Origin: a virus
DNA: 30,166 nucleotides
Virus record (IMG/VR): IMGVR_UViG_3300026094_000022
Location: 1 to 30,166 of that record
Reading direction: 5' to 3' (one strand)
Below are positions 1 to 30,166 of this stretch, in pieces. How positions within the stretch are numbered: the first letter of the stretch is position 1; every line of letters begins with the position of its first letter. The notes beneath the pieces are model-generated. The model was not told the DNA's origin. It ran no database searches and worked only from the letters and a program-made list of their open reading frames with translations. The translations under genes were made by a program, and so were the position numbers.

Positions 1-90
1 TAGGCGTCGGTAATACGTAAACCACCAGCGTCGGCGGCAATCCTTAAATGTTTGAATCTCTGAGTTAGATATTCTTACTGGCTCAGTCAT
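1..90 (-). CDS. Cas4/RecB-like PD-(D/E)XK exonuclease, N-terminal 30 codons only
   Basis: An ATG at 88-90 opens a frame that stays open to the left edge, giving 30 residues. They include SNSEIQTFKDCRRRWWF and then YYRRL, the usual N-terminal signature of phage Cas4/RecB-family nucleases (Ser-x-Ile, Phe, Cys-Arg-Arg, aromatic pair). In this family the first Cys can be one of four iron-sulfur ligands; the catalytic PD-(D/E)XK core would lie beyond the window. The start overlaps the helicase stop in an ATGA arrangement, a sign of translational coupling. Such nucleases make single-stranded ends for recombination, which fits the neighbouring helicase, RuvC and polymerase. The family call rests on a short but characteristic stretch. 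Confidence 0.6.
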   Translation of the reverse strand, partial: MTEPVRISNSEIQTFKDCRRRWWFTYYRRL

Positions 91-1898
91 TTCTTAAGCC
101 CTTCTACTAGTATTTTCTTTAGCTGGTCGCGGTCACGAACAACTTCTTCGAAGTTCTCAGACTTGGAGTCTAGAGCTTCAATGACCCTTTCTTCTATAGT
201 TCCTTCTGTAACATAGTCGTGAATCAGAACCGAGTCATGCTGTTCTGACCCAATGCGATGTACTCGGTCTAGAGCCTGCTTATAGTTAACTAGAGACCAA
301 GGTCTTTGAAGCATAACCAATCTCCTAGCTTTAGTCAAGGTAATACCGACACCGCCAGCTGCATCCGTAAATAGAATCCACTTAAGCTGACCTGCTTGAA
401 ACATATCGACAGCTGTCTGACGCTCTATGTCGTCTTGGTCTCCAGTGACCATCCCGTGAGGAATTTCTTCTTTATGTAGACGCTCGCTCAAAAGGTTGAG
501 TAGTTGTTTAGAAACTGCACAAACAGCTACGGAGTCACCACCAAAGTCGCCGTTTTTAATGTCATCCATAAGAGCGTCAACTTTACATGAAGGGTCTGAC
601 AATAAAACTTTTTCTTCACCGGATTCAGTCATTGTAATTTCTGCATATGCATTTGCAAACTGATTCAATCTCATTGTCTGAACCAAAGGGTCAGATGCAA
701 CAATTACATCTTCTTTACTATCTGTTTCGAACAAAGCAATCATTTTTTCAAGCATTTGCTTATAAGCCTTTGCTTGTTTAGCTCCCATTTCAACATCACG
801 ACGGTCATTAACAATCTCCGGTAGCCAAGGGAGAACCTTAGCCTTTAGCATTCTACGCATGCGCGGGTTAATGCTTGCATAAAACTCTTGTTCCATCTCT
901 GGCTTAAGTCCTAGGACCATCATTCCGCCAAAGTGGTTAGGAATAGTATCTACAAATCGGTCAATCCATTTGGTCTTACTGGGCCATTCTTCAGGCTTCA
1001 GCCAATGCAAGATTGGCCACAAGTCAACGACATCATTAGCAATCGGAGTTCCCGTCATTGCAATGCGGATATCTGCGCCTCCAGACGCTGCCCAAAGAGC
1101 TCTAGTCTGCTTGGACTTAGGGTCCTTAGAGCGGTGAATCTCATCAGCAACTACTGATTTAAAATCTAAATTATTTAGTTCTCGCTTATGTGCTTCACAG
1201 CGAGCCTCGCTAACTTTAGAATCGTGACCTCCACACTCAACACAGCGAGCTAGAGCTATAGAACCATAACCAACCAGCTTTGAATGAGTCCTCAAGGACT
1301 CCCAGTTCATTACGTAGACATCTGCTAATCCTGGTTCTAGTTGCTCACGACGCTTATTTGCAGAGCCCTTGACTACCTGGACAGATGCTTCTGGCCACCA
1401 CCTCTTAAATTCGCGCTCCCAGTTCTTCTTTAAAGTATTTGGGCAAACAATCATTGCCGGGAACACTTTTTCCCCCTGGTCTTTAAGTTTTTTCAAGGCT
1501 CTAATTGCCTGAGCAGTCTTACCAAGACCGGGCTCATCAGCAAGAAGAGCTTGTTTAGCAGTAGATAGAAATTGCACCCCTGCTCTTTGGTGAGGAAATA
1601 GGTCTTCATTGTCAGGGTCGCTAACCTCCTCAACCTCACGTAGGTCTAAGGCTGGTTGAACACGAGAAGCCTTCTCATTCTTTGCCCACTGACCGAGGTC
1701 ATCACCAATTGATAAGTACTCTTTAAATTGGCTACGAAGTGCCAAGCACCCTCCCCAAGAAAGAGGGATACGCCAGTTTTGCTTCTTTGCGTCCCAAGAT
1801 GCGCCAGGAAGACGTCTGCAAACTTCTTTAAACCGATATTCGGCATAAATATTTATGTGCTTGCCATCTTCAGCGATGTCTACTTTAACTTCTGACAA
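87..1898 (-). CDS. HARP-type SNF2/superfamily 2 DNA helicase
   Basis: This 603-aa SF2 ATPase probably remodels forked or annealed DNA during replication and recombination. Residues 15-60 resemble the HARP (SMARCAL1-like) module, with LPGASWDAKKQNWRIPL. The helicase core follows: HQRAGVQFL at about 103, Walker A DEPGLGKT at 121-128, DEIH at 252-255, TGTP at 282-285, and in the second RecA lobe TDAAGGVGIT near 511 and the arginine-finger motif QALDRVHRIG near 541. An insertion before motif II holds C219, C222, C234 and H237, a likely zinc site. The start is a TTG preceded at 5 bases by AGAGG. The stop overlaps the next gene by 4 bases. A 71-base AT-rich gap lies upstream. Confidence 0.9.
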   Translation of the reverse strand: MSEVKVDIAEDGKHINIYAEYRFKEVCRRLPGASWDAKKQNWRIPLSWGGCLALRSQFKEYLSIGDDLGQWAKNEKASRVQPALDLREVEEVSDPDNEDLFPHQRAGVQFLSTAKQALLADEPGLGKTAQAIRALKKLKDQGEKVFPAMIVCPNTLKKNWEREFKRWWPEASVQVVKGSANKRREQLEPGLADVYVMNWESLRTHSKLVGYGSIALARCVECGGHDSKVSEARCEAHKRELNNLDFKSVVADEIHRSKDPKSKQTRALWAASGGADIRIAMTGTPIANDVVDLWPILHWLKPEEWPSKTKWIDRFVDTIPNHFGGMMVLGLKPEMEQEFYASINPRMRRMLKAKVLPWLPEIVNDRRDVEMGAKQAKAYKQMLEKMIALFETDSKEDVIVASDPLVQTMRLNQFANAYAEITMTESGEEKVLLSDPSCKVDALMDDIKNGDFGGDSVAVCAVSKQLLNLLSERLHKEEIPHGMVTGDQDDIERQTAVDMFQAGQLKWILFTDAAGGVGITLTKARRLVMLQRPWSLVNYKQALDRVHRIGSEQHDSVLIHDYVTEGTIEERVIEALDSKSENFEEVVRDRDQLKKILVEGLKK

Positions 1899-1969
1899 AC
1901 TATCCTCTTCTCTTACTAACTACATATTATCATAAAAATCTAAAACTTACTGCATTTCTTGATAATAAC

Positions 1970-2425
1970 TTAAGAAAGGAGTCTAACAGGCTTCCAACCA
2001 GTTTTTGCAAGTCTAAGTAAGGCGTGTCTAATTGCATCTAATGCGTGACCAGCGCCGCCTTTATGCCAATATTCGAGCTGTTTTAAGGAGGGATTAGGGA
2101 AAAGACTTTTTGCATCAGAGGGATTTTGTAGGAAGATTGCGTCTGGATTTTTACCAGCATCTAACATGCACTGCTTTAGTACACCTATTTGCTCTAGAGA
2201 GTAAGGAGCCTGGCTATTTCTTACTGTTTGTTGGTTTATTAGGAACCTTTCACAGACAACATCTAGCTCATCGTAGTCAGCTAGAACCTGCCTTATAGGG
2301 CCTGCAAACTCTTCCTGTGTAAGTTCTAAAGAGAACTCCAAAACTGGCTCAGAATCGGTCTCACGGGTCATGAGAGCAACCCCTGACATCTTCCCCGGGT
2401 CAACTGCTAAGACTATTTGTTTCAT
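1970..2425 (-). CDS. ruvC: RuvC-like Holliday junction resolvase
   Basis: This 151-aa RNase H-fold nuclease probably resolves four-way junctions or branched replicating phage DNA. The three expected acidic sites are visible: AVDPG (Asp9) on the first strand, VCERF (Glu) in the middle, and GHALDAIRHAL (Asp) near the C-terminus. The frame is open further upstream inside the polymerase gene, but residues before MKQIVLAVDPG have no family resemblance. The ATG at 2423-2425 overlaps the polymerase stop by one base (TAATG), which is typical coupled reinitiation, so I choose that start. It lies between polymerase and helicase in one transcription unit. Confidence 0.88.
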   Translation of the reverse strand: MKQIVLAVDPGKMSGVALMTRETDSEPVLEFSLELTQEEFAGPIRQVLADYDELDVVCERFLINQQTVRNSQAPYSLEQIGVLKQCMLDAGKNPDAIFLQNPSDAKSLFPNPSLKQLEYWHKGGAGHALDAIRHALLRLAKTGWKPVRLLS

Positions 2426-4245
2426 TAGTATTTTGCACCCCAGTTCGCAAGCGGACCGTCTGCATCGGCGGTCAAAGGCACTGCCCAACTCTCGGTAGTG
2501 GTCATGCACTCTTTCACAATTTGCTTAATTTCCTCCGCATCAGACTTGTGCGCATTTAAAACAATTTCATCGTGAACAGGGACAATAAGGTTGTCCGTGA
2601 GGCCAGCTTGGTCTAATTTAATCAGATTAGATTTAAACACTTCAGCAGCGCCTCCTTGAATGAGGTAGTTCACAAGACGATAAACAGCATCATCCTCTGT
2701 GGGTATTTGGCGACCAGTCCAAGTCTTGACATAAGCTCTTCCCTCGGAATTGAGACGGTCTAACCCTTGATGCTCTATTTTCTTTTGGAACCTTGTCATG
2801 CCAGGAAATCTTTTATCGAACGCATTTGACACATCGCGCATCTGCGGCTCAGGCACACCCGCTGTAAGTGCTTGCTTGGAAACACCAGCGCCATATAGAC
2901 GTCCATACACGACACCTTTAATCAAGGCACGACGTTTGTCAGACTTTTGCATGGAAGGGTCGTTATAAATTTCCCTACCCATCTCAGTAAAAGGGTCAGA
3001 GCCTTCTGCGTCTGCTCGGAGGAAGAGCTGGATTAAGTTCGGGTCTTGAGAAAGGTCCGCAAACATTCGGAACTCAACCTGGTCAAGGTCCGAAGTAATA
3101 ATCATGTGGTCATCATCCTTTGGAAGAAAGGCCCTGCGTACTGTGTCACTGCCCTTAGGAAGTGTCTGCAAAGCCGGGTTTCTAATAGACATGCGACCAG
3201 TACGAGCACCCATTGTCATAATAGAAGGATGCAACCTTCCGTCTTGGTGGTCTTCTAAGAAGTTTAAGAAGTATGTGCCAGCAAGCTTGTCTGCTTTGCG
3301 TTGCTCAAGCATCAGTCCAGCAAGTTGCCTAACGGGCTCAGAACCCTCAATTGTAAATAGTTTTAACTGGTCAGCCGTGAGGGATGCTCGACCCGTAGGG
3401 GTGAAGGATGTAATCTCTGCGCCCAAAGTTTCTTGAAAAGTCTTTGCCATCTGAGGACCGCTGGTTATAGAAGCTCCGTAAGTCTTCTTAGTCCACTCCT
3501 TAGCCTGCTCTGTATATTGAATAAGCTCATCATATTTTTTCTGGGAGTAGTCTAAGTCAACACGGGCTCCATTGAGCTCCATCTGAGTGGCAACCCTGCG
3601 AGTATTCATCTCCAACTCATAGGGTGCGTGAAATATGCCGCCTGGCTGAACTAGTGGCCAAAAATGCTCAAATAGCCGTACTGTCAGAATTGTGTCAAGA
3701 GCACCATAAGCCCAGTAGGGTTCAAAACGGACAGGGATAGTTCCCCACGTCCAACCGTTCTCACGCTTGGCCTGGTCCAACCCATCCTGCATCATTGCAG
3801 CACTTGCATCTACATACTTACTTGCTAAAACTTTTAGCTTAGCTGGCTCGTCTGGATGAATCACTTGAGACATAATCATCGTGTCATGCGCGTTGTGCCA
3901 AGGAAGTTCCCACTCGCTCTGCGTCTCAAACCAAAGTGCCTCGAAGGCAATATTGTGGAATATGACTTTTCCATCATATTTATTCATCCCTTGATAGAAG
4001 ACGCCTTTCCAGGAATCCCACGGAATGGCCCAGCCCGTTTGGGCATCTCCTACTTGTACTAGTCGAATTTGGCCTTTCCAGGCATTTAGAGCATCTCGCC
4101 TATAGTCTCCGCCAGAGAGTTCACCTGTTTCTATATCAACGGCTACCGCATCGTTAGGGCGTCGTTGACCTAGCCAACGCAAGAAAGCGTCAGCTTCTTC
4201 CAAGCTGTCAACGAGTTTTACCTCAATATTGGATAAGTCTGCCAT
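2425..4245 (-). CDS. polA: Family A DNA polymerase with 3'-5' exonuclease
   Basis: This 606-aa replicative phage polymerase resembles the Klenow part of Pol I and lacks a 5'-3' nuclease domain. Proofreading motifs: DIETGE (Asp37, Glu39), FHNIAFE near 96, and YGALD ending in Asp184. Polymerase motif A is SDLDQVEFR (Asp386, Glu391), motif B is RRALIKGVVYGRLYG with Arg439, Lys443, Tyr447 and Tyr451, and motif C is VPVHDEIVL (His558, Asp559, Glu560). All catalytic residues are present. Tyr447 occupies the position of E. coli Phe762; T7 polymerase also has Tyr there. The ATG at 4243-4245 follows a GAGG stretch 13 bases after the previous stop. Confidence 0.95.
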   Translation of the reverse strand: MADLSNIEVKLVDSLEEADAFLRWLGQRRPNDAVAVDIETGELSGGDYRRDALNAWKGQIRLVQVGDAQTGWAIPWDSWKGVFYQGMNKYDGKVIFHNIAFEALWFETQSEWELPWHNAHDTMIMSQVIHPDEPAKLKVLASKYVDASAAMMQDGLDQAKRENGWTWGTIPVRFEPYWAYGALDTILTVRLFEHFWPLVQPGGIFHAPYELEMNTRRVATQMELNGARVDLDYSQKKYDELIQYTEQAKEWTKKTYGASITSGPQMAKTFQETLGAEITSFTPTGRASLTADQLKLFTIEGSEPVRQLAGLMLEQRKADKLAGTYFLNFLEDHQDGRLHPSIMTMGARTGRMSIRNPALQTLPKGSDTVRRAFLPKDDDHMIITSDLDQVEFRMFADLSQDPNLIQLFLRADAEGSDPFTEMGREIYNDPSMQKSDKRRALIKGVVYGRLYGAGVSKQALTAGVPEPQMRDVSNAFDKRFPGMTRFQKKIEHQGLDRLNSEGRAYVKTWTGRQIPTEDDAVYRLVNYLIQGGAAEVFKSNLIKLDQAGLTDNLIVPVHDEIVLNAHKSDAEEIKQIVKECMTTTESWAVPLTADADGPLANWGAKY

Positions 4246-5074: not shown

Positions 5075-8065
5075 TTAGTCTTTTTCTTCTAATTTTTTCT
5101 TTAAATAGTCTATTTCATTTGACAATTCTTTAATCGAATTAATCAGCATGGGAATTAAAGCTGGATAATCTAAACCATAAATCTGCTCGTCTTCAGGCAA
5201 CTTATCAGTAAGATTTTGGTTTTTAAACGTGTGTAGCAAGTTAGATGGTTGTTTAATATCAAAATTGTCTATAAGTGTTTCTTCTACTTCCTGCGCCAAA
5301 AGACCATAATTTGCAGTTGTATCATCTGAGTCATCTGATTTTATATCATATTTAAACTCTACTGGACGTAACTTAGTAATAAAATCAAGGCCTAAGCTCA
5401 AGTCTTTTATGTCTTTCTTTAGTCGAGAATCCGAAAAAGACCTACGTAAATATCCATCGCTATCTAACCGTGCAGTTGCAGTTCCAGGGCCAGACAAACT
5501 GTTTACTCTAAGCGCACCGCTCCTTAACTCTAGACGCCTAGTTGTTGAACCGGGAAATAAGTACATTTCAGCACCATCACCGCTCGAAGTTTCCGAAGCC
5601 TCGAGCTTTATATAAGTACGGGCCATCCTTAGCTCACCCTGGGTTCGTCCGGTAAACCTAGGGGACTTGGCTCGAAAAGCAACAGGTGTCATATCTAATC
5701 CGGACCTATTTGAGTTGCCTAGCTCAAAATACACTGAGCCTTCTTGGAGTGCCATGTTCGTAGCAGACGAAGAACTTTGGACGGATAGCCCGGAGCCGTT
5801 GGCCTCTATTAGACCTCTATGATTGGTATTGCTATCTCCGCTATCAAAAAATTTAATGGTGTTGGTCGATTCAGAAAGAATTATCCGTTTAGGGTTGGTG
5901 GTACCAGTTGCCTTGGTCTGCACCCTACCGATTAGTGTGCGGCCCGTAATGGTTCCAGATTTTATATTGTCCGCATTTAGGTTTGAGACAGTTACTCGGG
6001 AAGCATCGATAGTTCCGGTTCTAATTTTGTCACCGTCAATTACGGTACCGGGAGCTTTAATATCTCTATCACTATTAAAAGCAATAAAGGTATTGGACGC
6101 TACTGTTGGCGAAAGAATTCCGCCTGGGCTAACTATTGTCTCTTTAATAGAACCACTTGGGGAGTTATTAATAATTCTTATTATGTCATCAGCACTAAGT
6201 TCGTTGTCAGGTATGTTATTAATCTGCTGGTTTACATAAGTAGTGGTAGCCAGAGAGTTTAAATTTATATTTCCTGAAGAAAATACAGCACCATCTGAAG
6301 CCCTGATTCGAAAAGTCCGTTCTCCGAATTGGTCATATGCCTCGAGACCGTTTTTAGTTAGAATAATGCCATTTTGGTCACTACCACTACCATCATTTAC
6401 ATTTGGACCGGTTTGAATCCCAAGTCCTGTAATTAGCTGACCGTCCAATGTACCGACATCAATTACATCAAATTTGACTGGCTTATCTACTTCTGCTGTA
6501 AAAGTAGATTGAGCAGATACTTCCGTATTTCCATGAACATCATTTAAAACAAATCGTACGTAGTACGCGTTTCCATCAGTTAAGTCATTAGCATTTAGTA
6601 CTAGATAGCCTCCTGGTTCAGCGGGAAAGCTACCATAAAAAGTACCCGTGCCTTCTTGGAAGGTACCATCTTGTATTGAAAAACCATTAATCGTTGATAG
6701 GTGAACCTCTATCTCATAAGCGTCTACAGCAGGGGGTAGGGTGCCGTCTGTTTGTAGGCCGTCCCAGCTGAAAGTGGGGGTCCCCAAATATTGAGATACC
6801 TGAGGAGCGGTAGGTGTTTTTATTTGCTTTGCAGCAGGGGTTATTTCAACATCTATCTCAGCGGGCTCCGAGAGAAGTCCTCCACTATCAACAGCATAAA
6901 CGCGGAATGTCACAGTCGCTACTGCTTGACCATTACGTTTTACCTCAAAGCCATCTTTTGTCCACTGAGTGTCGTCCCCCAAAATGACATCGCCTTTTTC
7001 AAATGGCTCTGATTCCGCGTACCTGTGCCATACCTGCACACCAAGTAAATCATCCAAAGGGTTGCCTTCTGCATTTGTAGTTGGATTAGACCAATTAAGA
7101 GTTACGCGTGCCACCCCGGCTGTAGTACCGTCCACAGCCCTACTCTCCGAATTACCAGTAAGGTTGGTCACTGGCCCTGGAGCCACACCGTCGTCACCTA
7201 CAAATTCGTTGAAAGATATCCACCTAATGTCTCTCCAAGTAAAAACCTGGTCGGTTGCCTCGCTGTTGTCTACCCAGGTGGCTCCATCTCTAACAAAGTT
7301 GTGAGCAACTGCATATACATGCCTAGTTACAGTAGTGACAGGGGTGGTATTAATTGGTTCAGCTAGAGGCGAGGAGATTTCATACTCGATAAAGTCAGTA
7401 TCTACGTTAGACAGTCTAAAGAGACCGTCTCTACCAAAAACGATAGGGTTTTCAATACCAAGCTCTACATAAACAACATCTCCAACTTTAAACTTGTGTT
7501 GCCCGGTAAGGCCGATTCTTATAGTGCTGTCAGAGCCTTCATAGCTAGCAATTTGCACTTTAGTTATAAGCTCGATTGGCTGAGATGTGCCCTCAGGTGC
7601 AGCAACATCAGTTGCATACAGAACTGAATTTATTAGCTCTGGTTCTTGGTCAGTAGGTGTGTATTGATAGTTCTTACGCTCATCGCCGTCCCATGGCTCC
7701 GAGCTCGCAGAAACAATAGTGAAATTATTTCCAGAGACTTCAAAGTCGGCATCAGCTGACCCATTTATACCGCTTACTTGGAAGCGGCCATCGGCTTTTG
7801 AACCGGGGTCAGCACCAAGAAATACCTCTACGCGGGGAGAGCTGCCTGATACGCCGCTTCCGTAAAGATACGCTTTCTCGACCGGTAGGTATTGATTTGG
7901 AGCAGAGTTAGAAACAATTACATCTACCGAATCTGCCAGCTCTTCGGCAGCAGCTTGCTCGCTAGAAGATAGTAAGTCAATGGGACGAAACTCTAAAGTT
8001 TTTACCCTACGGTCTAACGTACTTAGCAGATTAGTGAGCTTCCTGCGTCTTCTTCTAATTGCCAA
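5075..8065 (-). CDS. Tail fibre/tip protein with Fn3-like domains and S74 self-cleaving chaperone
   Basis: This 996-aa protein is likely the host-contacting tail tip or fibre. After a short basic, coiled-coil N-terminus comes a beta module near 180-235 (GQHKFKVGDVVYVE), then two fibronectin type III-like domains near 295-410 and 417-525. A fibre shaft follows, with TGTIDASRVTVSNLNADNI. The C-terminal 119 residues form a Peptidase_S74 intramolecular chaperone: SDSRLKKDI supplies the Ser and, five residues on, the Lys of the self-cleavage dyad. GLLAQEVEE and a terminal coiled coil follow. The chaperone trimerises the fibre and then cuts itself off. The start is TTG at 8063-8065, chosen from the ribosome site at 8074-8079; a TTG at 8074 would overlap that site. 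It overlaps the upstream stop by 11 bases. Confidence 0.88.
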   Translation of the reverse strand: MAIRRRRRKLTNLLSTLDRRVKTLEFRPIDLLSSSEQAAAEELADSVDVIVSNSAPNQYLPVEKAYLYGSGVSGSSPRVEVFLGADPGSKADGRFQVSGINGSADADFEVSGNNFTIVSASSEPWDGDERKNYQYTPTDQEPELINSVLYATDVAAPEGTSQPIELITKVQIASYEGSDSTIRIGLTGQHKFKVGDVVYVELGIENPIVFGRDGLFRLSNVDTDFIEYEISSPLAEPINTTPVTTVTRHVYAVAHNFVRDGATWVDNSEATDQVFTWRDIRWISFNEFVGDDGVAPGPVTNLTGNSESRAVDGTTAGVARVTLNWSNPTTNAEGNPLDDLLGVQVWHRYAESEPFEKGDVILGDDTQWTKDGFEVKRNGQAVATVTFRVYAVDSGGLLSEPAEIDVEITPAAKQIKTPTAPQVSQYLGTPTFSWDGLQTDGTLPPAVDAYEIEVHLSTINGFSIQDGTFQEGTGTFYGSFPAEPGGYLVLNANDLTDGNAYYVRFVLNDVHGNTEVSAQSTFTAEVDKPVKFDVIDVGTLDGQLITGLGIQTGPNVNDGSGSDQNGIILTKNGLEAYDQFGERTFRIRASDGAVFSSGNINLNSLATTTYVNQQINNIPDNELSADDIIRIINNSPSGSIKETIVSPGGILSPTVASNTFIAFNSDRDIKAPGTVIDGDKIRTGTIDASRVTVSNLNADNIKSGTITGRTLIGRVQTKATGTTNPKRIILSESTNTIKFFDSGDSNTNHRGLIEANGSGLSVQSSSSATNMALQEGSVYFELGNSNRSGLDMTPVAFRAKSPRFTGRTQGELRMARTYIKLEASETSSGDGAEMYLFPGSTTRRLELRSGALRVNSLSGPGTATARLDSDGYLRRSFSDSRLKKDIKDLSLGLDFITKLRPVEFKYDIKSDDSDDTTANYGLLAQEVEETLIDNFDIKQPSNLLHTFKNQNLTDKLPEDEQIYGLDYPALIPMLINSIKELSNEIDYLKKKLEEKD

Positions 8066-10097
8066 TCTTATCAACCTCCGGTTCAGTTACGAGCTCCAAA
8101 GATACTTCTTCCGGGAAAGAAGGATTATCTGGAACAGTGACTTCAAGTGCGTCTATTTTTCTCAGTAAGACTTGTCTATTAGTACCATCACGGAGCTCTA
8201 TATAACTTTGCAGCCTGAGTCTTACAAAGTCATCATTAATTATCACAGAGCACCAGTCACCAGGCTTATATGAGCCTATTTCAGGTATCATCGAACCATT
8301 TACATCTATTGTAAAGTTACTGCTTGGAGGTTTACTCTCTTCTAGATACCTTTTTGCAACGCCTTGCAGTAAAACTTCATTCCGAGACTCGAAAGTTTCA
8401 GTTTGGTCAATTAGAGGCCAGCCTCTATCTAGTAAATCTATATCGGCAGCCGCTGAGTACGGTTGACTAGCAGATTCGCTTAAGTCGGGGTCATTTCCCT
8501 TTACCCAAAAACGGGTAGCTGACGTCTCGGCTGATTCTTCAAAACTTGCATTTGATATATTTCCAGGATATTCAAATACAGTTTTGTCCGCACCGAAGGC
8601 ACTGACAGGAGCAAACTCTCCTGATGGTAGCTTTCCATCAGGCAAGCTATTTACATAAGTACTTAAAGTGGGCGGAACTAGAGGTAGAAAGGTAAAAATC
8701 TTTCTAAACTTATTTGTAGAGTTGTCAAATTCGCAATCAATCCTATATTCAAAGCCGTTAGGTACATTTGAATATTCATCCAGTATTTCGCCTATAGACC
8801 TCAGCTCGAAACCGCGGAGTATGGCGTTTCGCTGACGCTCTTGGCTAGGCTGGTCTGTAGAAAACTCGATACCCAAGAAAGAATTATTGCTGTATGGCCC
8901 ATATGTGGAGAAGGTTACCGCCGGGTCAACTATCGCAACTGCCTCAGAAGATGCCGGGCTGAAAGCGACTAGAGAACCTAGGACCACAAAGGTAAAGTTG
9001 TTCGCCTGAGGCTCTCCAACTGTTCTAATGGTGTGGAACCCGTCTACTGATGGATTAAGGTCTTGAATATATACAATATCCCCCTCTTTAAATCCATGGG
9101 GGCCACTTGTAGTTATGGTGACGGTATTGTTTAAGCGTTGCCAGAAGGTTATGTCAGCACTCTGTCGGGCAGCGCCCGTTTGAGCCACGTTTTGGCCCGT
9201 GTTCTCATATGTAAAAGTCTTACTGTCTATAACTTCTTTAACTTTTGCGTCCTGAGTGTCAAACCCCCTCCCCGTATCGGTTACCTTTATCCTTTGTCCT
9301 TTTACAAGCTCATGATTTCTATTTAACGTGATTCTGGCTACGTTCGAACTTCGTGAGTATGTGCTAATAACATTGAATAAATCAATTCCCGGTTCGATAG
9401 CGTCATTTGCAAACTGCAAGTCAAAAAAGTCATTTTCTAGCTCGCCGAGAATATATCGGGCGTAGTCATATGTGTCCTGACGTACCTCCACAGTGATAAT
9501 GCCTTCTTCAACAATTTGGTCAGGAATGGTCACAGTTCTACCCTGAGCATCCACATACTCGGCATTTACAGTTATTTGGTCTGTTCCGTTTGTAGTTAGT
9601 ACGCTAAAAGTGTCACTATATAGACTCCTGTCGGGGCCCCAATCTAAATAAATTGGCTCTCCAACTTCAAAAGCATATTCTGCAAAGTCTAAGTTGATAG
9701 TAGCTACCCCCGACTCAACAGTAGCATTAGCACTAAAAGCATTAGAAAAGGTCTGCCAAAGAACTCGACTATACAGATAACTTGTAAACTCCGAGGCTGA
9801 AACATCAAGGGACTTTGAGACTATGTCGTATGTTCTTGACCATATAATGCCTCCCCATACTGTAACACCGTTTCTAGTTATAAAAAGTGCACGTTTACCC
9901 GGGAGAGTATTTTCATAAAGACTTAGATTAAAAGTCTCTGCAACTACTGGTATGCTTCCGAAAAATTGACCGGCTTCGCGAAGAGAGCGACCGTAACTTA
10001 CTCCTGTAAAGGGGATTTCAGCAAGCAGTTCATTAGTGTTGATATCGGTAACAAAGTACCTATACTCAACCTCTGCAGGTTTTCTTGTCTCTACCAT
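8055..10097 (-). CDS. Tail hub / minor tail protein (gp37-like or Tal N-terminal type)
   Basis: This 680-aa structural protein at the tail tip lies between the Dit-like protein and the fibre. The N-terminal 100 residues have the pattern of actinophage minor tail hub proteins, including RALFITRNGVTVWGGIIW near 69-86 before a long mixed region. Two or three strand-rich modules with a G-x-x-V/I core occur near 128-180, 252-298 (NHELVKGQRIKVTD) and 322-372 (GPHGFKEGDIVYIQD). The last region (about 400-680) is typical of hub proteins that close the tube. No lytic-enzyme motif was seen. It starts with ATG 23 bases after the Dit stop and its end overlaps the fibre start. Confidence 0.75.
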   Translation of the reverse strand: MVETRKPAEVEYRYFVTDINTNELLAEIPFTGVSYGRSLREAGQFFGSIPVVAETFNLSLYENTLPGKRALFITRNGVTVWGGIIWSRTYDIVSKSLDVSASEFTSYLYSRVLWQTFSNAFSANATVESGVATINLDFAEYAFEVGEPIYLDWGPDRSLYSDTFSVLTTNGTDQITVNAEYVDAQGRTVTIPDQIVEEGIITVEVRQDTYDYARYILGELENDFFDLQFANDAIEPGIDLFNVISTYSRSSNVARITLNRNHELVKGQRIKVTDTGRGFDTQDAKVKEVIDSKTFTYENTGQNVAQTGAARQSADITFWQRLNNTVTITTSGPHGFKEGDIVYIQDLNPSVDGFHTIRTVGEPQANNFTFVVLGSLVAFSPASSEAVAIVDPAVTFSTYGPYSNNSFLGIEFSTDQPSQERQRNAILRGFELRSIGEILDEYSNVPNGFEYRIDCEFDNSTNKFRKIFTFLPLVPPTLSTYVNSLPDGKLPSGEFAPVSAFGADKTVFEYPGNISNASFEESAETSATRFWVKGNDPDLSESASQPYSAAADIDLLDRGWPLIDQTETFESRNEVLLQGVAKRYLEESKPPSSNFTIDVNGSMIPEIGSYKPGDWCSVIINDDFVRLRLQSYIELRDGTNRQVLLRKIDALEVTVPDNPSFPEEVSLELVTEPEVDKIGN
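8074..8079 (-). promoter_or_regulatory. Ribosome binding site deciding the fibre start
   Basis: The minus strand reads GGAGGT here, followed by 8 bases and then TTG at 8063-8065. This is ideal spacing for that TTG and rules out the more upstream TTG at 8072-8074, which overlaps the site. The site lies inside the end of the tail hub gene. Confidence 0.65.
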
Positions 10098-17055: not shown

Positions 17056-17063
17056 TATCTCTT

Positions 17064-17121
17064 CCTAAAAATTACGGGCGATGCACCTGATATCAAGGAT
17101 ACCGCGAGATGCACCGCCCGT
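17064..17121 (-). terminator. Terminator-like hairpin after the major tail protein gene
   Basis: On the transcript ACGGGCGGTGCA (17110-17121) pairs with TGCATCGCCCGT (17074-17085) in a 12-bp stem with one G-U pair. The intervening bases can form a smaller inner stem (GGTATC with GATATC). AATTTTTAGG follows directly, giving five U residues. This looks like a partly efficient rho-independent terminator 13 bases after the major tail stop. It would leave the major tail protein on more transcripts than the connector genes. Confidence 0.65.
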
Positions 17122-17134
17122 GTTAATTTTGGTC

Positions 17135-19157: not shown

Positions 19158-21341
19158 TTAGAGCTCAATAGCGGCTGCGGTTGCGCCACCAGTGGTGTCA
19201 CGGAGAGCAGCTGCTACACCGTTGACACTAATGGTTGATGTCACCTTCAGTGACTCGACTCCAACGAACGCTACGTTCTCGAAGGTCTCAACGAACATCT
19301 TGTAGTCGTTGGTTCCAACAAGTGAGCTGTCGCGGATGATACCTAGGTCTAGAGTTCCACCATCCAAGAATAGGAAGCTTCCCTCTGCGAACAGGTACCA
19401 GTCGAATGAGTCTGCAAACTCGTTAAGAGCTCCAGTACCCTGCGCACCGAATGGGTTTCCGTCCAAGGTTGGCACTAGGTCTACACCAACATTTGCTAGG
19501 TAACCGGTAATCTCCGACTGCGATACAGCCAAAGTTCCGTCACCTGGCATTGACAAGGTCAAGTCCGCTGCCATCGCGTCATATACCCAGGCAGGAATAA
19601 CTGCCTTCAAGCGTGTGCTTGGGTCTAGGCGGTGACGTGAACGGTAACCGGTTGCTGCGCGACGTAGCTGTACCAAGAAGTCACGGCCGAAGCCAATTAG
19701 GCTTGAGGTGGTAACTGCGGTTGAAGCTGCACCAATCTTGCTTAGCAAGTTAGCCTCTGCCTCACGTGCGTGCTGTACCAGACCTAGCTCGTTGTGACGA
19801 GCAATCAACTCTGGGTATGCACGAGTCATGAGGTTACCGAACTGCATCTGTAGAGTAATAGCGTCAGTTGACACTGTGTTCTCTGCAGCAGCGGTTACGG
19901 TGTAGCTGGTTTTTGCTGCTGGGTCTGGGCTATCGGCCGCATCGTTTGCAGCAGTCCAGACACCAACGGCGTCAGCATATGTACCGTCAGCGAACTGAGG
20001 TGGTGTTACAAAGCGGATACCGCCACGGTCAGCCTGGAAACGTGGCAACATGTCACGAACCGGGCGAACGGTGGTTGAACCGACACTGTAGATGTCGTAC
20101 TGAACCTCGACAGGTGCGGCGTGTCCACCGGAAGCGGTTAGGGCTTCCTGTCCAACAACGGCCTCAATTTTAGCCTGGTTCTCTAGCGGGTCAGTACCGA
20201 GGAAACGCTCCTCTGGGTACTGGGTTGAGAAAGATGCAACGATGTGCTGCTCTCCATCTCCTCCGTTGACACGACGTAGGCCGTGCAGACGCTTTTCCAT
20301 AGCGGCTGACACCTCACTCATGTCCTTCATTTCGGTGCCTGCCGTGTAGCCAGGAATGTCAGCACCAGCAGTGATTGCTACTGGGGCTTCGGTTACCTGA
20401 ACAACGGGACGGCGGTCAGCAGGAGCTTCAAAGTTCTCCTCAGCAGATGCAGTCACTGTAGCCTGCCCTTCCTCTACCTCTTCGGTAGCGTTAGATAGTT
20501 CAATTGTTGTTTCTTGTTCGGTTGAAGCTTCTGCTTCTTCCACAACCTCAGCTGAAAGCTCAGCCTCTGGTTCACTTTCGCTTGAGAGCTCGCTTGCTTC
20601 CTCAGCGGCAGCTTCTACGGTCTCCTCCTCGGCGGAAGCTTCAGCTTCTACCTCGGTCTCAACAGCAGCTTCTGCAACCTCTTCGGTAGCTAGCTCAGTC
20701 TCTGTGGAGTCTTCAGTTACTTCTTCTGACTCGGTTGATAGTTCTGAACCTTCGTCCTGAACAGTCGATGCTTCTTCGGATTCGGAGGCAGCCTCGGACT
20801 TGTCGTCCTCGTCCTCGTCCTCGTCCTCTGACTTGTCGTATCCCAATTCCGTGGTTGAAGCCTCAGACATTTCGTCCTCGTCCTCGTCCTCGTCTGAATC
20901 CATACCAGCTTCTGTTTCCTCTTCAGCCTCGTCCTCTTCTGAGTCCATAGCTGCTTCGGCGTCTTCTGGCATTTCTTCTTTGGTTTCCTCTTCTGGATTT
21001 TCATCCATAGATTTCTCCATTTCCTCGGTCTCGGGCTCCATTTCCATTTTATCCATGGCAGCCTCTTCCTCTCCAGCCGCCTCGCTCTCGCCCTTGACAC
21101 GAGCGGTTGCTTCAGCAGCTTTAGCCGCCAGCTCGGCAGCCAATGTCTCACGGCGAGACAACTCGGCGCGAACCATGTCAAGAGAGTCGGCTAGCGACGT
21201 CATAGCATCAACTGTCTCAGGAGACGGGTCTTCACCCTCAACCATCTCAAACTGGCTGACAATATCGTCTTGTAGCTCAGCGACTTGTTCGTCGCTTAGC
21301 TCAGCGATAGTGTCAAGCTGAGTTTTAATTTGGTCGTACAC
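19158..21341 (-). CDS. Major capsid protein (HK97 fold) with long acidic scaffold-like N-terminus
   Basis: The last 390 or so residues are an HK97-type major capsid protein: FSTQYPEERFLG, a loop region with RPVRDMLPRFQADRGGIRFV, a spine helix (HNELGLVQHAREAEANLLSK), then RLKAVIPAWVYDAMAADL and DWYLFAEGSFLFLDGGTLDL. Before it, about 80-325 is extremely acidic and low in complexity (Glu, Asp, Ser, Ala), preceded by a helix (QLDTIAELSDEQVAELQDD). This part probably works as a built-in scaffold (delta domain) removed by the protease encoded upstream. I choose GTG at 21339-21341 because AGGAGGT precedes it; the upstream TTG at 21401 has no ribosome site. The resulting protein is 727 aa. A 133-base gap precedes it with no confident promoter. 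Confidence 0.9.
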   Translation of the reverse strand: MYDQIKTQLDTIAELSDEQVAELQDDIVSQFEMVEGEDPSPETVDAMTSLADSLDMVRAELSRRETLAAELAAKAAEATARVKGESEAAGEEEAAMDKMEMEPETEEMEKSMDENPEEETKEEMPEDAEAAMDSEEDEAEEETEAGMDSDEDEDEDEMSEASTTELGYDKSEDEDEDEDDKSEAASESEEASTVQDEGSELSTESEEVTEDSTETELATEEVAEAAVETEVEAEASAEEETVEAAAEEASELSSESEPEAELSAEVVEEAEASTEQETTIELSNATEEVEEGQATVTASAEENFEAPADRRPVVQVTEAPVAITAGADIPGYTAGTEMKDMSEVSAAMEKRLHGLRRVNGGDGEQHIVASFSTQYPEERFLGTDPLENQAKIEAVVGQEALTASGGHAAPVEVQYDIYSVGSTTVRPVRDMLPRFQADRGGIRFVTPPQFADGTYADAVGVWTAANDAADSPDPAAKTSYTVTAAAENTVSTDAITLQMQFGNLMTRAYPELIARHNELGLVQHAREAEANLLSKIGAASTAVTTSSLIGFGRDFLVQLRRAATGYRSRHRLDPSTRLKAVIPAWVYDAMAADLTLSMPGDGTLAVSQSEITGYLANVGVDLVPTLDGNPFGAQGTGALNEFADSFDWYLFAEGSFLFLDGGTLDLGIIRDSSLVGTNDYKMFVETFENVAFVGVESLKVTSTISVNGVAAALRDTTGGATAAAIEL
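20805..20828 (-). repeat. Tandem hexamer GAGGAC x4 (Glu-Asp repeat)
   Basis: Four perfect tandem copies of the coding-strand hexamer GAGGAC encode part of an alternating Glu-Asp run in the capsid N-terminus. A second run of three copies lies at 20874-20891. Such microrepeats can change length by slippage, and the encoded scaffold region would tolerate this. Confidence 0.75.
20874..20891 (-). repeat. Tandem hexamer GAGGAC x3 (Glu-Asp repeat)
   Basis: Three perfect tandem copies of the same hexamer as at 20805-20828, again encoding Glu-Asp repeats in the acidic capsid N-terminus. The two runs are separated by about 45 bases and the surrounding protein segments are similar, which suggests a local duplication. 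Confidence 0.7.
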
Positions 21342-21344
21342 TGT

Positions 21345-21351
21345 ACCTCCT
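21345..21351 (-). promoter_or_regulatory. Strong ribosome binding site for the major capsid gene
   Basis: The minus strand reads AGGAGGT, a full anti-16S match, then ACA and a GTG. Spacing is slightly short, but no other start codon lies nearby in frame. This supports GTG at 21339-21341 rather than the longer TTG start. Confidence 0.65.
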
Positions 21352-21474
21352 AGGCCAGTTTCGGTTAATGGACGTCGTAACGCCCTATGATTTACAATCA
21401 AGGTCAGGGACTTAGACGTAGCAAAGACGTCAAGGCACTAAACCTAATGTAATTTTACCGTATATTTTAGGGCA

Positions 21475-24400
21475 CTAGTTAAGGAGGCGGAGTAATTTAC
21501 TCATCTCGGACTGCACCTCACCCTGGGAGAACAGGTCTCCACCTGACATATATGTTTTAAGCTTGTCCGTAGCTATAGCAGCGTCTTCTTTTCCAATCTT
21601 GCTTTCAACCCTGTTAACCATTCCCTCAATTAGGTCTTTTAGACCTGAAGGGAGGTCACTGTACTTAATTTTTTCTGCATCTTTACCAAAAGGTAGGGGT
21701 AAGTTAGAGATTGCTTTACCTAATTCGGCGGCCGTAGCCCTGACGTTTCCTAGAGCTTCCGGGTTAAGGGCTTTGGTGTCTAATCTGTCTAACATAACTA
21801 GTAGGTCAGACCCTGCGGCAGCAGAACGGACGTAGTCTCCAGCAAAATCAAGGTTGTAAGCTTCCTCGGCTTTTTCTAGAGCTTTCTGAGCACCTGAAAC
21901 ACCTAAATCTTGCTTTAGCCTAGCTAACACCTTGCGGTATTTACCTTTAGCATCACGAGGTTGGTTAACGCCGGAGATATACTTTTCGCGTCCCTCTTCA
22001 GGGTCGAAATCTCCTCCCCGGCCTTCAGCTTTTTTTAATTCTTCTTCCTCGTCGGCTGCCTTCTTAGCATCGCGGAGCTGTCTATTGTCTTCCTCGTCAG
22101 GCTCTGCAAACTCAGAAGAAGCCGAAGCTGTTATGCCCCACTCTTCTGGAATCATATCTTCGCGGTCTAAATCACGAGCACGCTTAACAATGTGCCTTTT
22201 TGCTTTATCAATGTCCTTAGCCCTACCATGAGCCTGAATAGCATCTTTCAAATCTTCAGTATCAGCTATAGGAAATGAGCCATCTGGAAGAGCTTTACCT
22301 TCTTCGGCGTATTTTTCGCGAGTTTCTTCGGTATAGTCCTTAAACTCTGAAGCGCTTAGCTCAGAGATTCTGTTCCTCATCTGAGCAACTTTAAACTCGG
22401 CAATATCTGACCTTGAGTATGAATCAAGCCTCTTTTTTGCCTTAGCTGCTCTTTCGCGCAAATCAGGCGTAGAGTGTGCTAGCTGTGAGAGCTTATCCGC
22501 TCTGGTGCTTAGCGTGGTGACTGCTTCAGATTTCATCATGGCAAAGAAGCTAGCGCCAGCGGCAACTAGTGCAAGTACCTCTCCCGATGCGACCATTGCA
22601 CGTGCAACTGGGAAACCTGGAACATTTACCTGACAAACAGCAACAAGTTCAAGAGCTCCGCCGATTGGTCGCCAGTCTCCAGATGGGGCCGAGGCACGCA
22701 GTGCCCGCACTTCACTCTCCCCAACGTTTGGACGCAGTGAACCTGATACCCAAATGCCGAACTCGTCTTCTCCTGCATGTACATCAGCAATTGCCGAAGC
22801 TGTGTCATCGTAATGCTTAGCTGCATCTTCTGCACTTGCACTTAAGGGGGCGTGCCCGCCTGCCAAGGTTAGCTGTCCGACTGGAACATCCTTACCTGCA
22901 TCGGTGTGGACAACTCCAGTGTGGAAATATGCGTACTTGCTCCGTGAGCGCGGTGGCTTAGTTGAACGTGGCAATCCGATGTGGCTAACGTGCCATGCAG
23001 CAATATGCCCATAGATGTGGCCACTAGGGTCAACAGTCAGAGGGGTTGGCTTTGTCAGTCCAGGATTTTCGAACCAACCCTGTGGTGGAGTAACTGGGAT
23101 TTCTCCAGCTAGGTATCCAGAAGCAGCTAGTGGCTCTAGATTAGTGAACTCATCCATTGACTCTTCGTAGAGTCCATCTTTCGGGGTCACGTCGTCCTCC
23201 TGATACCCAGATTGTTGAATAGAAATAGAGCATTCTTGGAATGCGGGCTTAGCTACAATTGTAGCAGCCATGACCCTGGCCTTATTGATAATCAGCTTGT
23301 CCTTGCCCATCTCGCTGTCTTCAGCATTTTCAGATTTTTCTTCCTTTGCCTCAAATTGGTCTAGGTCAGCTGAAACTCCATGGAGGAACCCGTGCTTAAC
23401 CATTCGTTCGGCTTCGCGGCCATAGGGGCCGGTGTCGAACACTCCATATGCGTTTCCAATACCTTTATCGGTTTTTTCCATATAGTCAATTCGACCAACT
23501 ACTACAGAACCGTCATGACCAGAGCCAGTTTTAATCTGCCATAGAAGCGGAACAGGCAGGTCTCTTACACCAATTGCACCCTTTTTAAATCTACGACCAT
23601 CTCCAGAGTCTGCTTCTTCGGGGATAACTAGAGGAATGTAAAACTTTGCACCCTCTTTTTCCCTGCGCGCACTTGCTCGGAGAGCTACTTTCTCACGCGC
23701 ATCTTCAGCTCTTGCTCGGAGTTCGCTCTGTTTTAAAATGATGGAGTCTAGTTGCTCGACGCTTTTAAACATAGCGCTCGAAAGGAGGCTCTTTTTTCCA
23801 ACGTTATATTTACTGCCAGTGTAGACACCTGTCATTTCTTTGTGGCGAAGCTGACAATATCCTTTTGCACGTGGCCCCATGTATTTAGAAAGATAGCGTA
23901 CACAACGGGTCCAATCTCCAGGGGTATTCCACATAATCTTTGCGCCACCGATTCCACGGGTCCAATAACGGCGAAGATTCTCTGCGTTACCGCGGTTGCG
24001 GTCCAACCCACCGGCAGCAACAATACTGGTTACGTTCTTTTTCCAATACTCAAGCAATACGCCTGAAGCTGTTACGCTCTTCTCGTCAACTTGCTTTAGA
24101 ACATCATTTAAAACTTCTTTTTCATCTAGCTCCACTACAGGCGGTGGGGTGGCTGACTTAAGGTCTGCCATTATTTGGTCGTTACGTACCCACTCGCCTT
24201 CTTTGCGCTCATACACAACAGGAGCTGTAGATTCTTTTGTTTCGGGGACAATGGCAACTAAGTCCATAACTGCACTAAGGTCGTCGGGGGAGACTAGAGC
24301 TAGATATTTAGCGGGAATGTCAGTTTCTTCTGGCGTCTGAGTAGCAGCAGCTGTAACAGCTGGCTTAAACTTTTTACGCTGGTCCAGAACATATGCGTCC

Positions 24401-25806
24401 CAGTTGTTGATTAGTTGCTGGAAGTCTCCAGCTTCCATAGGGGGTAGAGTGCCTGGCAGTTGAGCCTTAGGATATCCTTTAGGAGTTCTAGGCTCTCCTA
24501 GAATGCCGGAAGTATCTAGGGGAGATTCAACTTTAGGAACTCTACGTGGACCTTCTGCATCCTCTTCGGCCTCAGTAAACTCAGCGCCGACCTCTATTTC
24601 TTTTCCTGAATCTAGCTTGACTTTTACTTTCCCTGTTTTTGAATTAACAGAAGTAATTGTTCCAGAACCACGCTGTCTATCCCCGCCAACTACAGTACGT
24701 GCGCCGGCAGACACAAACTTGCCTCCTGCGTCGCGAGGTTGGTTTGAGGCCTTCTGAGAACGCTCTTCTTCGGTATAGTTACCGTCTTGGTCTGTAACTG
24801 GCTCCCCTGCAGCAAGCATCACCATATCAATCATGTCAAAGTCTTCTTCGTTAAGACCAGCCTCCATAAGGAATGTTTCCTCAGGGTCAATCTCTTCTAG
24901 CAAGATTGGCTCAAATGGACGCTCTTGCAAATAGGCCGAAACAATCATGGCTGAGGAGGGGTCGATAATCACATGGGTTTTTTCAACAGTATCGTACGGC
25001 TCATCTAAGGCACGGTCGTAAAAATAAATATCACTATCTACGTGACCTAGGTCGTCCCAAGAGCAGTCATCCCAGACATATACGCGACCATCAATATCAA
25101 TCTTATATAGGCGGTCAATACCTGACCCATCCATGCGGACACGGGCCATAAACTCTGGACCTGCGTTCATATCTAAATCGTGAGCAACCTTAAAATCGTT
25201 TAGGTACGCGTCATACGTTTCGTCATTTGAGTAGTCCTCAAAAGCAGAAGCGGTCTTTGCTTCTTTCTTATCCTCGCGCTCCACAATGGCGGATGCCCAA
25301 CGCTGACCAGCGTCTCCACCCCAAAGTGCCCATGCGATTCTGCCCGCAGAGGGGAAACCGTCTTCTCCGTACTCGTAGCCTTTAGCCTTCTTGTCTACTT
25401 CGTGACGAGGAAAATATTTTGCAATGTGGCGAACTTTTTCAATTCCAATTTGTCCACCCTTGGCCAAACGACGAGCTGTGTTGTAACCGACTCTGGTTCC
25501 ACCTCGACCGTGCTCTTTACGCCACTTAAGACCTTTTTTAGCTTCCTTTTGGACACCGCCAGGAATAGTGTACATAGAACTTCCTGCAGCTGTGATTGAA
25601 GCTTCTACTGTAGATAGGGCCGCCGCGGCCAGCTCCTCGGTGATTGGCCCTACTGATGCATCTCTTTGGTCAGCTTTTGCGGCCATGGTAAGTAGCTCAT
25701 GCTGAGAAAAGTCTTCAACTAGATTGCTGGCAACGTTAACTGCTGCATACATCCCGTCTTTCTCGAATACAGCATGCTCGTTGTTTTTACCAATAAAATT
25801 AATCAT
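21475..25806 (-). CDS. Giant multidomain prohead (capsid maturation) protease
   Basis: At 1443 aa this is several times the size of a normal U35 prohead protease. In order: a helical module near 90-175 with WRKEHGRGG, FPRHEVDKKAKGYEYGEDG and GRIAWALWGGDAG; NQPRDAGGKF near 355 followed by an SH3-like strand set; a module near 585-665 with NAENLRRYWTRGIGGAKI and YMGPRAKGYCQLRHKEMTG; the protease domain near 720-865 with LLWQIKTGSGHDGSVVVGRI (His764) and GFLHGVSADLDQF (Ser812) as likely catalytic residues; a conserved companion domain near 930-1085 (IYGHIAAWHVSHIGLP); KRHIVKRARDLDREDMIPEEW near 1204; and a second NQPRDA near 1281. It should cleave the capsid scaffold part and possibly itself. 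It overlaps the gene before it by 8 bases. Confidence 0.88.
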   Translation of the reverse strand: MINFIGKNNEHAVFEKDGMYAAVNVASNLVEDFSQHELLTMAAKADQRDASVGPITEELAAAALSTVEASITAAGSSMYTIPGGVQKEAKKGLKWRKEHGRGGTRVGYNTARRLAKGGQIGIEKVRHIAKYFPRHEVDKKAKGYEYGEDGFPSAGRIAWALWGGDAGQRWASAIVEREDKKEAKTASAFEDYSNDETYDAYLNDFKVAHDLDMNAGPEFMARVRMDGSGIDRLYKIDIDGRVYVWDDCSWDDLGHVDSDIYFYDRALDEPYDTVEKTHVIIDPSSAMIVSAYLQERPFEPILLEEIDPEETFLMEAGLNEEDFDMIDMVMLAAGEPVTDQDGNYTEEERSQKASNQPRDAGGKFVSAGARTVVGGDRQRGSGTITSVNSKTGKVKVKLDSGKEIEVGAEFTEAEEDAEGPRRVPKVESPLDTSGILGEPRTPKGYPKAQLPGTLPPMEAGDFQQLINNWDAYVLDQRKKFKPAVTAAATQTPEETDIPAKYLALVSPDDLSAVMDLVAIVPETKESTAPVVYERKEGEWVRNDQIMADLKSATPPPVVELDEKEVLNDVLKQVDEKSVTASGVLLEYWKKNVTSIVAAGGLDRNRGNAENLRRYWTRGIGGAKIMWNTPGDWTRCVRYLSKYMGPRAKGYCQLRHKEMTGVYTGSKYNVGKKSLLSSAMFKSVEQLDSIILKQSELRARAEDAREKVALRASARREKEGAKFYIPLVIPEEADSGDGRRFKKGAIGVRDLPVPLLWQIKTGSGHDGSVVVGRIDYMEKTDKGIGNAYGVFDTGPYGREAERMVKHGFLHGVSADLDQFEAKEEKSENAEDSEMGKDKLIINKARVMAATIVAKPAFQECSISIQQSGYQEDDVTPKDGLYEESMDEFTNLEPLAASGYLAGEIPVTPPQGWFENPGLTKPTPLTVDPSGHIYGHIAAWHVSHIGLPRSTKPPRSRSKYAYFHTGVVHTDAGKDVPVGQLTLAGGHAPLSASAEDAAKHYDDTASAIADVHAGEDEFGIWVSGSLRPNVGESEVRALRASAPSGDWRPIGGALELVAVCQVNVPGFPVARAMVASGEVLALVAAGASFFAMMKSEAVTTLSTRADKLSQLAHSTPDLRERAAKAKKRLDSYSRSDIAEFKVAQMRNRISELSASEFKDYTEETREKYAEEGKALPDGSFPIADTEDLKDAIQAHGRAKDIDKAKRHIVKRARDLDREDMIPEEWGITASASSEFAEPDEEDNRQLRDAKKAADEEEELKKAEGRGGDFDPEEGREKYISGVNQPRDAKGKYRKVLARLKQDLGVSGAQKALEKAEEAYNLDFAGDYVRSAAAGSDLLVMLDRLDTKALNPEALGNVRATAAELGKAISNLPLPFGKDAEKIKYSDLPSGLKDLIEGMVNRVESKIGKEDAAIATDKLKTYMSGGDLFSQGEVQSEMSKLLRLLN

Positions 25807-26155: not shown

Positions 26156-26181
26156 CAATTATACCTTCTCTTGTGCTTTGT

Positions 26182-26532
26182 CTAGTCTACCACTTCAGAG
26201 CCGTCTTCAAGAGAACGAGTACCTTTACCTAGGCCTAAAGAAGCCATAGTCGGGTGCTCGCCAGTAATCTTCATTTTCTCTGAAGGGAACATTACATTGA
26301 GCAAATACACTGTTGTACGCAAATCTGTCAACGTAGTTGGTAAGTAAGGCCCCTCGGGTGTGGCGGGAAAATTCTCACCGTATTCATTTACAAGGATGTC
26401 CACGAAGGCTTGGATAGTTTGCTCCTGAGCATTTGCTTCAAAGTCATCCTTATCAGCTAAAAGCCCTTCTTCGGGAGTCCACTCGAAAGAAAGCCCGTCT
26501 AAGTTAAAACTTACTGGTTCTGTATATTCCAC
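26182..26532 (-). CDS. Unknown acidic head-module protein (116 aa)
   Basis: Function not recognised. The GTG start at 26530-26532 overlaps the previous stop by one base (TAGTG), typical of coupled reinitiation. The protein is acidic, with a beta-like N-terminus (EYTEPVSFNLDGLSFEWTPEE), a helix near 32-50 (ANAQEQTIQAFVDILVNEY), and a second helix (TTVYLLNVMFPSE). No membrane or signal segment was seen. It shares its operon position with the 118-aa gene and may belong to the same head complex. Confidence 0.65.
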   Translation of the reverse strand: MEYTEPVSFNLDGLSFEWTPEEGLLADKDDFEANAQEQTIQAFVDILVNEYGENFPATPEGPYLPTTLTDLRTTVYLLNVMFPSEKMKITGEHPTMASLGLGKGTRSLEDGSEVVD

Positions 26533-29500: not shown

Positions 29501-30166
29501 CTTCGGGGGTACCAGAGCCTTTGGCCTCTTGAATATCCTCAGGCCTAAATGGAGTTCTATTTACTTCAGAAACACCGTTGTCATACCGCTCTAGGTCTGT
29601 AGGTATTAGACCTGCGGGGGTAGGCTGGAAGCCTTCAGGAACGTTTGTATAGATGTCCTCGACGTCAGGAGTTGGGTCTGCAACGACTGTCTCTTCAGGC
29701 TCTTCTACATCTTCTATCTCTTCTTCGTAGTCGTCCTCGTCCTCGGTAGCTCTCCGCTCGAGCTCCAAGCGACGTCTTTCGTCTATCTTGCGGCGGGTCT
29801 CTTCTAGAGCTTCCCTAGCCTTTCTTAATTCGTCTATAGTATCGGTGAGGTCTCGGTCCTCAACGGGACGACTTCGAGGTTTTCTACGTTCTAGAGGGAG
29901 GGCGTCAGTGCCGTCCTTCTTAACCCTAGACAACCTAGCTGCCGTGGCTGCCGGGCTTACGTTACCGTCCTCAAGGTCGTCTTGGAAGTCATCATCTTTA
30001 GAGACAGCAGTTTGGATTTCCTCGAAATCAGCAGGGTCTCCTGTCTGCCTATACCTATCTATTGCCCTCTTGACTCTTCCATCTCTGTCGTAATTCTCGA
30101 AGAACTTCTCTAGCCTGTCTAAGTTGGCATCGTCTGAGTCTTTAATTCTGTTTGGGAAGTCTGCCT
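26532..30166 (-). CDS. Very large minor head protein with C-terminal zincin motif, 5' end beyond the window
   Basis: The frame is open from the right edge: 77 codons lie upstream of the first TTG at 29931-29933, so that TTG is internal and the real start is outside. At least 1210 residues are visible. The N-terminal part is charged and coiled-coil-like (ELRKAREALEETRRKIDERR) with a Glu-rich tract. An SH3-like strand domain (QLAVGDVVEWKNNEGVV, then RGRIVALK) follows near 28535-28680. Helical regions follow. The C-terminal 300 residues hold HELWH at 27126-27140, a zinc peptidase motif, with a possible third ligand in ENATELGTTLFESVF downstream. Its place before the protease and capsid fits a MuF-like or portal-linked minor head protein carrying an enzyme domain. 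No MuF motif is visible in the part present. Confidence 0.72.
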   Translation of the reverse strand, partial: ADFPNRIKDSDDANLDRLEKFFENYDRDGRVKRAIDRYRQTGDPADFEEIQTAVSKDDDFQDDLEDGNVSPAATAARLSRVKKDGTDALPLERRKPRSRPVEDRDLTDTIDELRKAREALEETRRKIDERRRLELERRATEDEDDYEEEIEDVEEPEETVVADPTPDVEDIYTNVPEGFQPTPAGLIPTDLERYDNGVSEVNRTPFRPEDIQEAKGSGTPEDIKAKLLEYYPEAGIASDGSIVVHRKTYKEEFGPAEGQEVSVQIKVKETDDNKMMLVFDVDVDGRKEQYIHYSPRNSFASLVGVGGKAQQSRGIENLLNKYIERPDEDFDLASNPDKERRLYGGAYGGISRLRKANADNIAETGKNDTDLKLRTPEEHAKIMLSGRNQQLNTDDTVFWTQRRGEVPSFYSAFDNGDQEAAARIFASYVGTLPNTPEQKDKAYDFLESSMREKFPNANEEQLSAFLSSVKSRLNSGRGTDKSRPIVTHVDRDNKQLAVGDVVEWKNNEGVVSRGRIVALKAVENPNDGKYTFSDYAEVEFKGKRLPEGLNTNNMKLSDDQDSEIDEYSHWIREEDLALRRLSKRPDVAYDPELKVFYRKTDNQILKDFEGRTEKELEELQTDLAKQNRKEEQEALETPDKEDIKQEVEPRDTVPFKDDEPVSEAARLKLRGLADRLRELRADDLDEDTSMSEEYEKIFNAVDNPDLTANEYQEVAKTARNLLNKIATKQEMPTPKATPAGETGAASSVSNLVPGVQLIPRRSTADAAEQLRKGEFGEAVAPVKGDKTKGVYRPTDAALSKVEEFRAGGEDVYNKAVKRFNDNEEFQANVKKLEKEIEVLDAKKESARLEVETSVRSGRSRSDTEKLRKKQRAASQRALDKRAEVSNLFRRALKEELEEQGVEFNVLKLDKYLHKFDSFGFGQDEPLPSSSTFRKSINDALQFMPRPIIQGLIDDLESEGKVIRVSKSNDRRGYFGVYTDGSYGLQLANDKSSLFPEQGGSGPHGNNALHELWHFVQKTNPDLVSAEGAYVYNRSKKVDEDGNEIFELSTLPGYSKKEVGLVSDVSVPYSTKVYLRRNANLANNPDENATELGTTLFESVFGTYNNRAINGQGLFAVAKGPNGRPVIYRDVNARNTVVPDNVKTGYYNSADGKWYEDSAFSNPIDVSHQVGRPVDSYDQDAVNYMLGTLLAFKTKEGDTKTIAERLERSSD

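Follow-up and report, generated by a model that had tools for sequence, protein, structure and literature searches.

The window analysed here is a linear IMG/VR record, counted over its full length of 30,166 nt, and is a genome fragment of an actinobacteriophage related to Actinomycetia phage DSL-LC01 (Dishui Lake). It carries a structural module together with a polymerase and a helicase, and its major capsid protein, which served as the query for relatives and for the tree, is 70% identical to the DSL-LC01 counterpart, while cultured Microbacterium, Arthrobacter and Gordonia phages are more distant kin. The following genes were assigned by PHROG matches or by gene position:

90..1898, minus strand: DNA helicase (phrog_62, E 1e-118)
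1973..2431, minus strand: RuvC-like resolvase (by position, as in DSL-LC01; phrog_1981)
2428..4245, minus strand: DNA polymerase I type polymerase (phrog_17, E 6e-112)
5078..8062, minus strand: tail fibre/spike protein (several PHROG tail fibre families)
8058..10097, minus strand: minor tail protein (phrog_1885)
10124..11059, minus strand: distal tail / minor tail protein (phrog_5577, phrog_33)
11059..13866, minus strand: tape measure protein (by gene order, as in DSL-LC01)
15949..17055, minus strand: head-tail adaptor (phrog_783, E 1e-38)
17138..18166, minus strand: major tail protein (phrog_792)
19161..21401, minus strand: major capsid protein (phrog_777, E 8e-78)
21478..25806, minus strand: portal / maturation protease-like protein (phrog_859, phrog_18402)

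In addition, a 1,133-aa protein encoded at 26535-29933 has no PHROG match and, in a comparison of open reading frames, was absent from the GATC-bearing contigs.

Absence of GATC from the window

The tetranucleotide GATC does not occur on either strand of the window. An exact count over positions 1..30166 gives zero in coding and intergenic DNA alike, as the sequence-only reading had claimed, against 73.3 copies expected under a second-order Markov model (79.3 if the two strands are pooled) and 114.7 from base composition. Its estimate of about a hundred chance copies agrees with this range of 73-115 and with the 92.1 ± 8.0 copies obtained when synonymous codons were shuffled within each gene (minimum 71 in 400 shuffles; z = -11.5), a procedure that keeps each protein and its codon usage and whose result is unaffected by one CDS of ~350 nt having been read out of frame. 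GATC is thus far under expectation after composition and codon use have been allowed for, as in restriction-site avoidance. When all 256 tetramers were compared with the Markov expectation, the next lowest was ATGA at 0.63, so that no unrelated tetramer is equally depleted, and the remaining fifteen four-base palindromes, all present as had been noticed, lie between 0.71 and 1.25 of expectation.

The loss of GATC in the window is synonymous editing. Aspartate preceding a C is encoded by GAC in all 118 cases, compared with 294 GAT and 266 GAC elsewhere, and isoleucine following a G never uses ATC (0/87, against 95/393 elsewhere), while all 14 serines after xGA are encoded by AGC or AGT. Since the window contains 1,539 one-mismatch neighbours of GATC, the zero must be maintained.

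Missing palindromes among related phages

Relatives were collected as 80 viral-contig loci through the capsid protein of the window and another 80, partly overlapping, through that of DSL-LC01; for 31 relatives the contigs were read whole (one minus its last 704 bases), which together with the window and DSL-LC01 makes 33. No GATC at all is present in 14 of these 33 contigs, including G006, the longest GATC-free contig (154,192 nt, 375 expected), G039 (127,375 bases, 338 expected) and G040 (102,539 bases, 269 expected). Intermediate counts, as expected where sites are being lost or regained, were also found, with 18 observed against 145 expected in G019 and 93 against 324 in G045.

The supposition that GATC loss characterizes the phage group does not hold, as normal counts are found in most relatives, a close one included, and several have purged another palindrome. 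The relative whose capsid protein is identical to that of the window (L059) has no GATC, and neither has the whole 41.9-kb contig of one with a 90% identical capsid (L005), whereas one with a 94% identical capsid (L004) holds 131 GATC against 165 expected over its contig. In an alignment of the window to the close relative G001, none of the 52 GATC sites that G001 has at aligned places is kept, compared with 175 of 1,002 other palindromes (17%); half of the 52 lost sites differ by one base, most often reading GACC. A tree built from 82 capsid proteins requires no fewer than 11 changes of state for absence of GATC and 11 for absence of CCGG, numbers that rest on one gene and that phage recombination could inflate. 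Aligned DNA identity between the window and its nearest neighbours is 67-76%, which leaves ample time for losing or regaining sites.

Among 92 non-redundant relatives, 32 lack one or more palindromes completely, and the 44 zeros (GATC 20, CCGG 12, AGCT 6, CGCG 2, TCGA 2, GCGC 1 and ACGT 1) stand against none in 10,880 tests of non-palindromes. GATC is present in G022, G028 and G033, which have no CCGG, and in G031, which has no GCGC. Phage DSL-LC01 (OQ999401; L001-L003) contains 876 GATC in its ~129-kb genome. Over the 128,950 bases that were counted it has neither TTAA (123 expected) nor ATAT (126 expected), and both TATA and AATT occur. With DSL-LC01 included, nine tetramers are targets in the phage group. 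We know of no restriction enzyme with ATAT specificity. The two zero words of DSL-LC01 are also partly depleted, along with GATC, in G019. The 102.5-kb G040 (L135-L140) lacks GATC and CCGG and has 11 of 46 six-base palindromes at zero, compared with none of 1,945 non-palindromic hexamers, so that absence is specific to palindromic Type II sites among tetramers and six-base words alike. In the cultured soil relatives Big4, Racecar, GMA2 and Sixama (40 kb each), no tetramer is at zero.

Methylases by which a phage might protect its own DNA were rare in the 50 phage records, whose contigs are mostly fragments (PF02086 in 1/50, PF01555 in 1/50, PF00145 in 3/50), and this distribution does not point to such protection. 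G001 and G002, both close relatives, have none of the three families, and no PF02086 methylase was found in the window. Of the three phages in which a cytosine-5 methylase was matched, two lack CCGG (G028, 79674-81044; G040, 17059-18096). In addition, the candidate genes of the GATC- and AGCT-free phage G039 (L128-L134), leaving aside the G040 members of the joint G039/G040 set, include one for a protein carrying a GmrSD_C domain and one for a member of the Mom family, which acts in DNA modification and anti-restriction.

Candidate host systems and competing explanations

The window phage lineage has very probably been stripped of GATC by a host Type II restriction endonuclease that cuts the unmodified site. 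The enzyme would most plausibly be of the Sau3AI type, paired with a cytosine-5 methylase, and active in a small-genome actinobacterium, with cleavage as the selective agent. Phage DNA entering with even one GATC site would be at risk of cleavage; mutations that destroy a site, for the most part synonymous ones such as GATC to GACC, would be selected until zero were left, and newly arising sites would be weeded out. The purged palindrome would depend on which restriction system the host carries at the time and might change when the phage lineage switches host or hosts change their systems. Restriction by the host is favoured because the zeros are confined to palindromes, involve several targets and switch frequently.

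Predicted enzymes of this kind were found on the host side, and GATC- and CCGG-cutting systems in small-genome actinobacteria support an anti-restriction origin of the zeros. Of 395 genomes from the class of Actinotalea (G052), two of 1.3 Mb carry a two-domain MutH/Sau3AI-type enzyme, which exceeds the cut-off of the NCBIfam equivalog NF040973 (397 bits) and matches the solved Sau3AI structure (PDB 4PXG, E 7e-48). In both genomes the gene is convergent with a cytosine-5 methylase gene. At locus L251 (954-7870), the Sau3AI-like pair, with the enzyme at 5263-6615 and the methylase at 6614-7870, adjoins, by eye, an apparent SNF2-type helicase, a GHKL-type ATPase and an HNH protein, and the region is possibly a larger defence island. 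Within the family of one of the two genomes, whose members range from 0.8 to 2.2 Mb among the rows listed and are probably streamlined freshwater actinobacteria, HpaII-type (CCGG) enzymes occur in 2/211 species, one such gene, at L337, adjoining a cytosine-5-methylase-like gene. Judged from gene content, GATC and CCGG systems thus appear to exist intact in small-genome actinobacteria, which are candidate rather than proven hosts of the window phage. The sequence-only reading had hosts carrying a GATC system widely, which these surveys do not support: Sau3AI-type enzymes occur in 4/296 species of this candidate family, and DpnII-type GATC nucleases in 0/297 genomes in the order of G052 and 0/296 in the family of G437.

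No relative of the capsid protein was found in 84,980 bacterial and archaeal genomes, which gave no prophage or host link. The phage ribonucleotide reductase was tried as a host marker and set aside, as it gave only 60-66% full-length matches, in larger-genome Actinomycetia. 5-Methylcytosine is poorly detected by SMRT sequencing. Counting against restriction by the host, no methylated motif was found by SMRT in acI genomes of Lake Biwa (PMC6329791). Marine Microbacteriaceae are reported to methylate TTAA (PMC9516812), which may be compared with the TTAA zero of DSL-LC01.

A phage-encoded nuclease directed at host DNA, with the phage genome free of its own target and relatives using other specificities, would likewise explain exact zeros and why they differ from one relative to another. 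As the window is a fragment, the gene could lie elsewhere in the genome, and a GmrSD_C (HNH-like) domain is present in one protein of the G039/G040 candidate set. This alternative seems very unlikely, because no gene family convincingly marks the GATC-free contigs, no GATC-cutting gene common to GATC-free phages was found in the contigs examined, and none of the 50 phage records has a MutH/Sau3AI-type gene. Moreover, the 32 G006 proteins absent from GATC-bearing relatives include no restriction nuclease by Pfam or PADLOC, and the two tetramers and 11 six-base palindromes missing at once from G040 are too many for carried nucleases.

Selection might also arise in hosts that methylate GATC (Dam), through a DpnI-type enzyme or through GATC mismatch repair. 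For phiX174, which lacks GATC, a link to mismatch repair has been considered (PMC5014478), and D12-type methylases occur in 41/297 genomes in the order of G052. In their neighbourhoods, one methylase, at most a candidate for GATC specificity, lies beside a protein without assigned function. At one locus (L231, 162-2373), the gene immediately after a D12 adenine methylase encodes a DUF6996/DUF6997/DUF7226 protein, which may be a restriction partner of a kind not yet described. Dam-directed mismatch repair cannot account for relatives having purged CCGG, AGCT, CGCG and other words to the same extent, and, to our knowledge, Actinobacteria are not known for Dam/MutH-directed repair, which makes this route highly improbable. 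The likelihood that composition, codon bias or an assembly or library artefact produced the zeros is practically negligible: nearly all compared relatives are metagenome assemblies, but codon-preserving shuffles still give 92 ± 8 copies and the zeros occur in palindromes only. A library artefact is excluded by GATC-free and normal relatives coming from the same metagenomes (L012 and L038 in 3300044846; L048 and L022 in 3300047553). Cleavage by a host enzyme remains the preferred explanation. The part of the original proposal with the best support, resting on palindrome-only and recurring zeros, is long and strong selection directed at a single restriction target, though it is not group-wide; of the enzyme types then considered, plain Type II cleavage of unmodified GATC is retained and Dam/DpnI-type systems are less likely.

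Significance and comparison with known systems

The absence of GATC from one phage is a further case of a known phenomenon, and the parts of interest are the frequent turnover among relatives and the exclusion of ATAT in DSL-LC01. Complete site purging is a record of defence pressure that persists in the DNA even of phages whose hosts cannot be cultured, and such genomes may record the restriction enzymes of their uncultured hosts; a phage group with many state changes and several targets also offers a natural experiment with replicates. It is conceivable, though we hold it with some doubt, that the identity of the excluded palindrome switches rapidly and corresponds one-to-one with host restriction repertoires, including undescribed specificities such as ATAT. 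If that mapping were true, a set of uncultured phages could be used to tally the restriction systems active in uncultured actinobacteria and to assign hosts. Possible uses include predicting hosts, finding unknown restriction specificities and timing host shifts. In the literature searched, absolute zeros, nine tetramer targets and many switches inside one phage group were not described.

Staphylococcus phage K (~140 kb) resembles the window phage in having a large genome from which GATC sites have been eliminated, which was explained by the Sau3A system of its host (PMC6532042). For phage K the host enzyme is known, whereas for the window phage avoidance is read from the DNA itself and relatives differ in the palindrome that is missing. 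Site elimination is also shared with the Staphylococcus podovirus phiAGO1.3, which has 2 GATC and 0 GGNCC and for which it was proposed as the main anti-restriction strategy (PMC6346686), although that phage has a 17.6-kb genome and its host range was tested by experiment. On a broader scale, GATC was found to be under-represented in all 46 phages with GATC-enzyme hosts (Rusinov et al. 2018; PMC6286503); that survey concerns under-representation across many viruses, while exact zeros and frequent switching are seen here within one phage group. The pelagiphages are similar in being aquatic phages of streamlined bacteria with motif depletion that differs between clades, as GANTC is depleted clade-wise in a subset of them (PMC9516812). 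In pelagiphages one motif is involved and its depletion follows clades, whereas the group of the window phage combines several motifs, complete loss and many changes of state.
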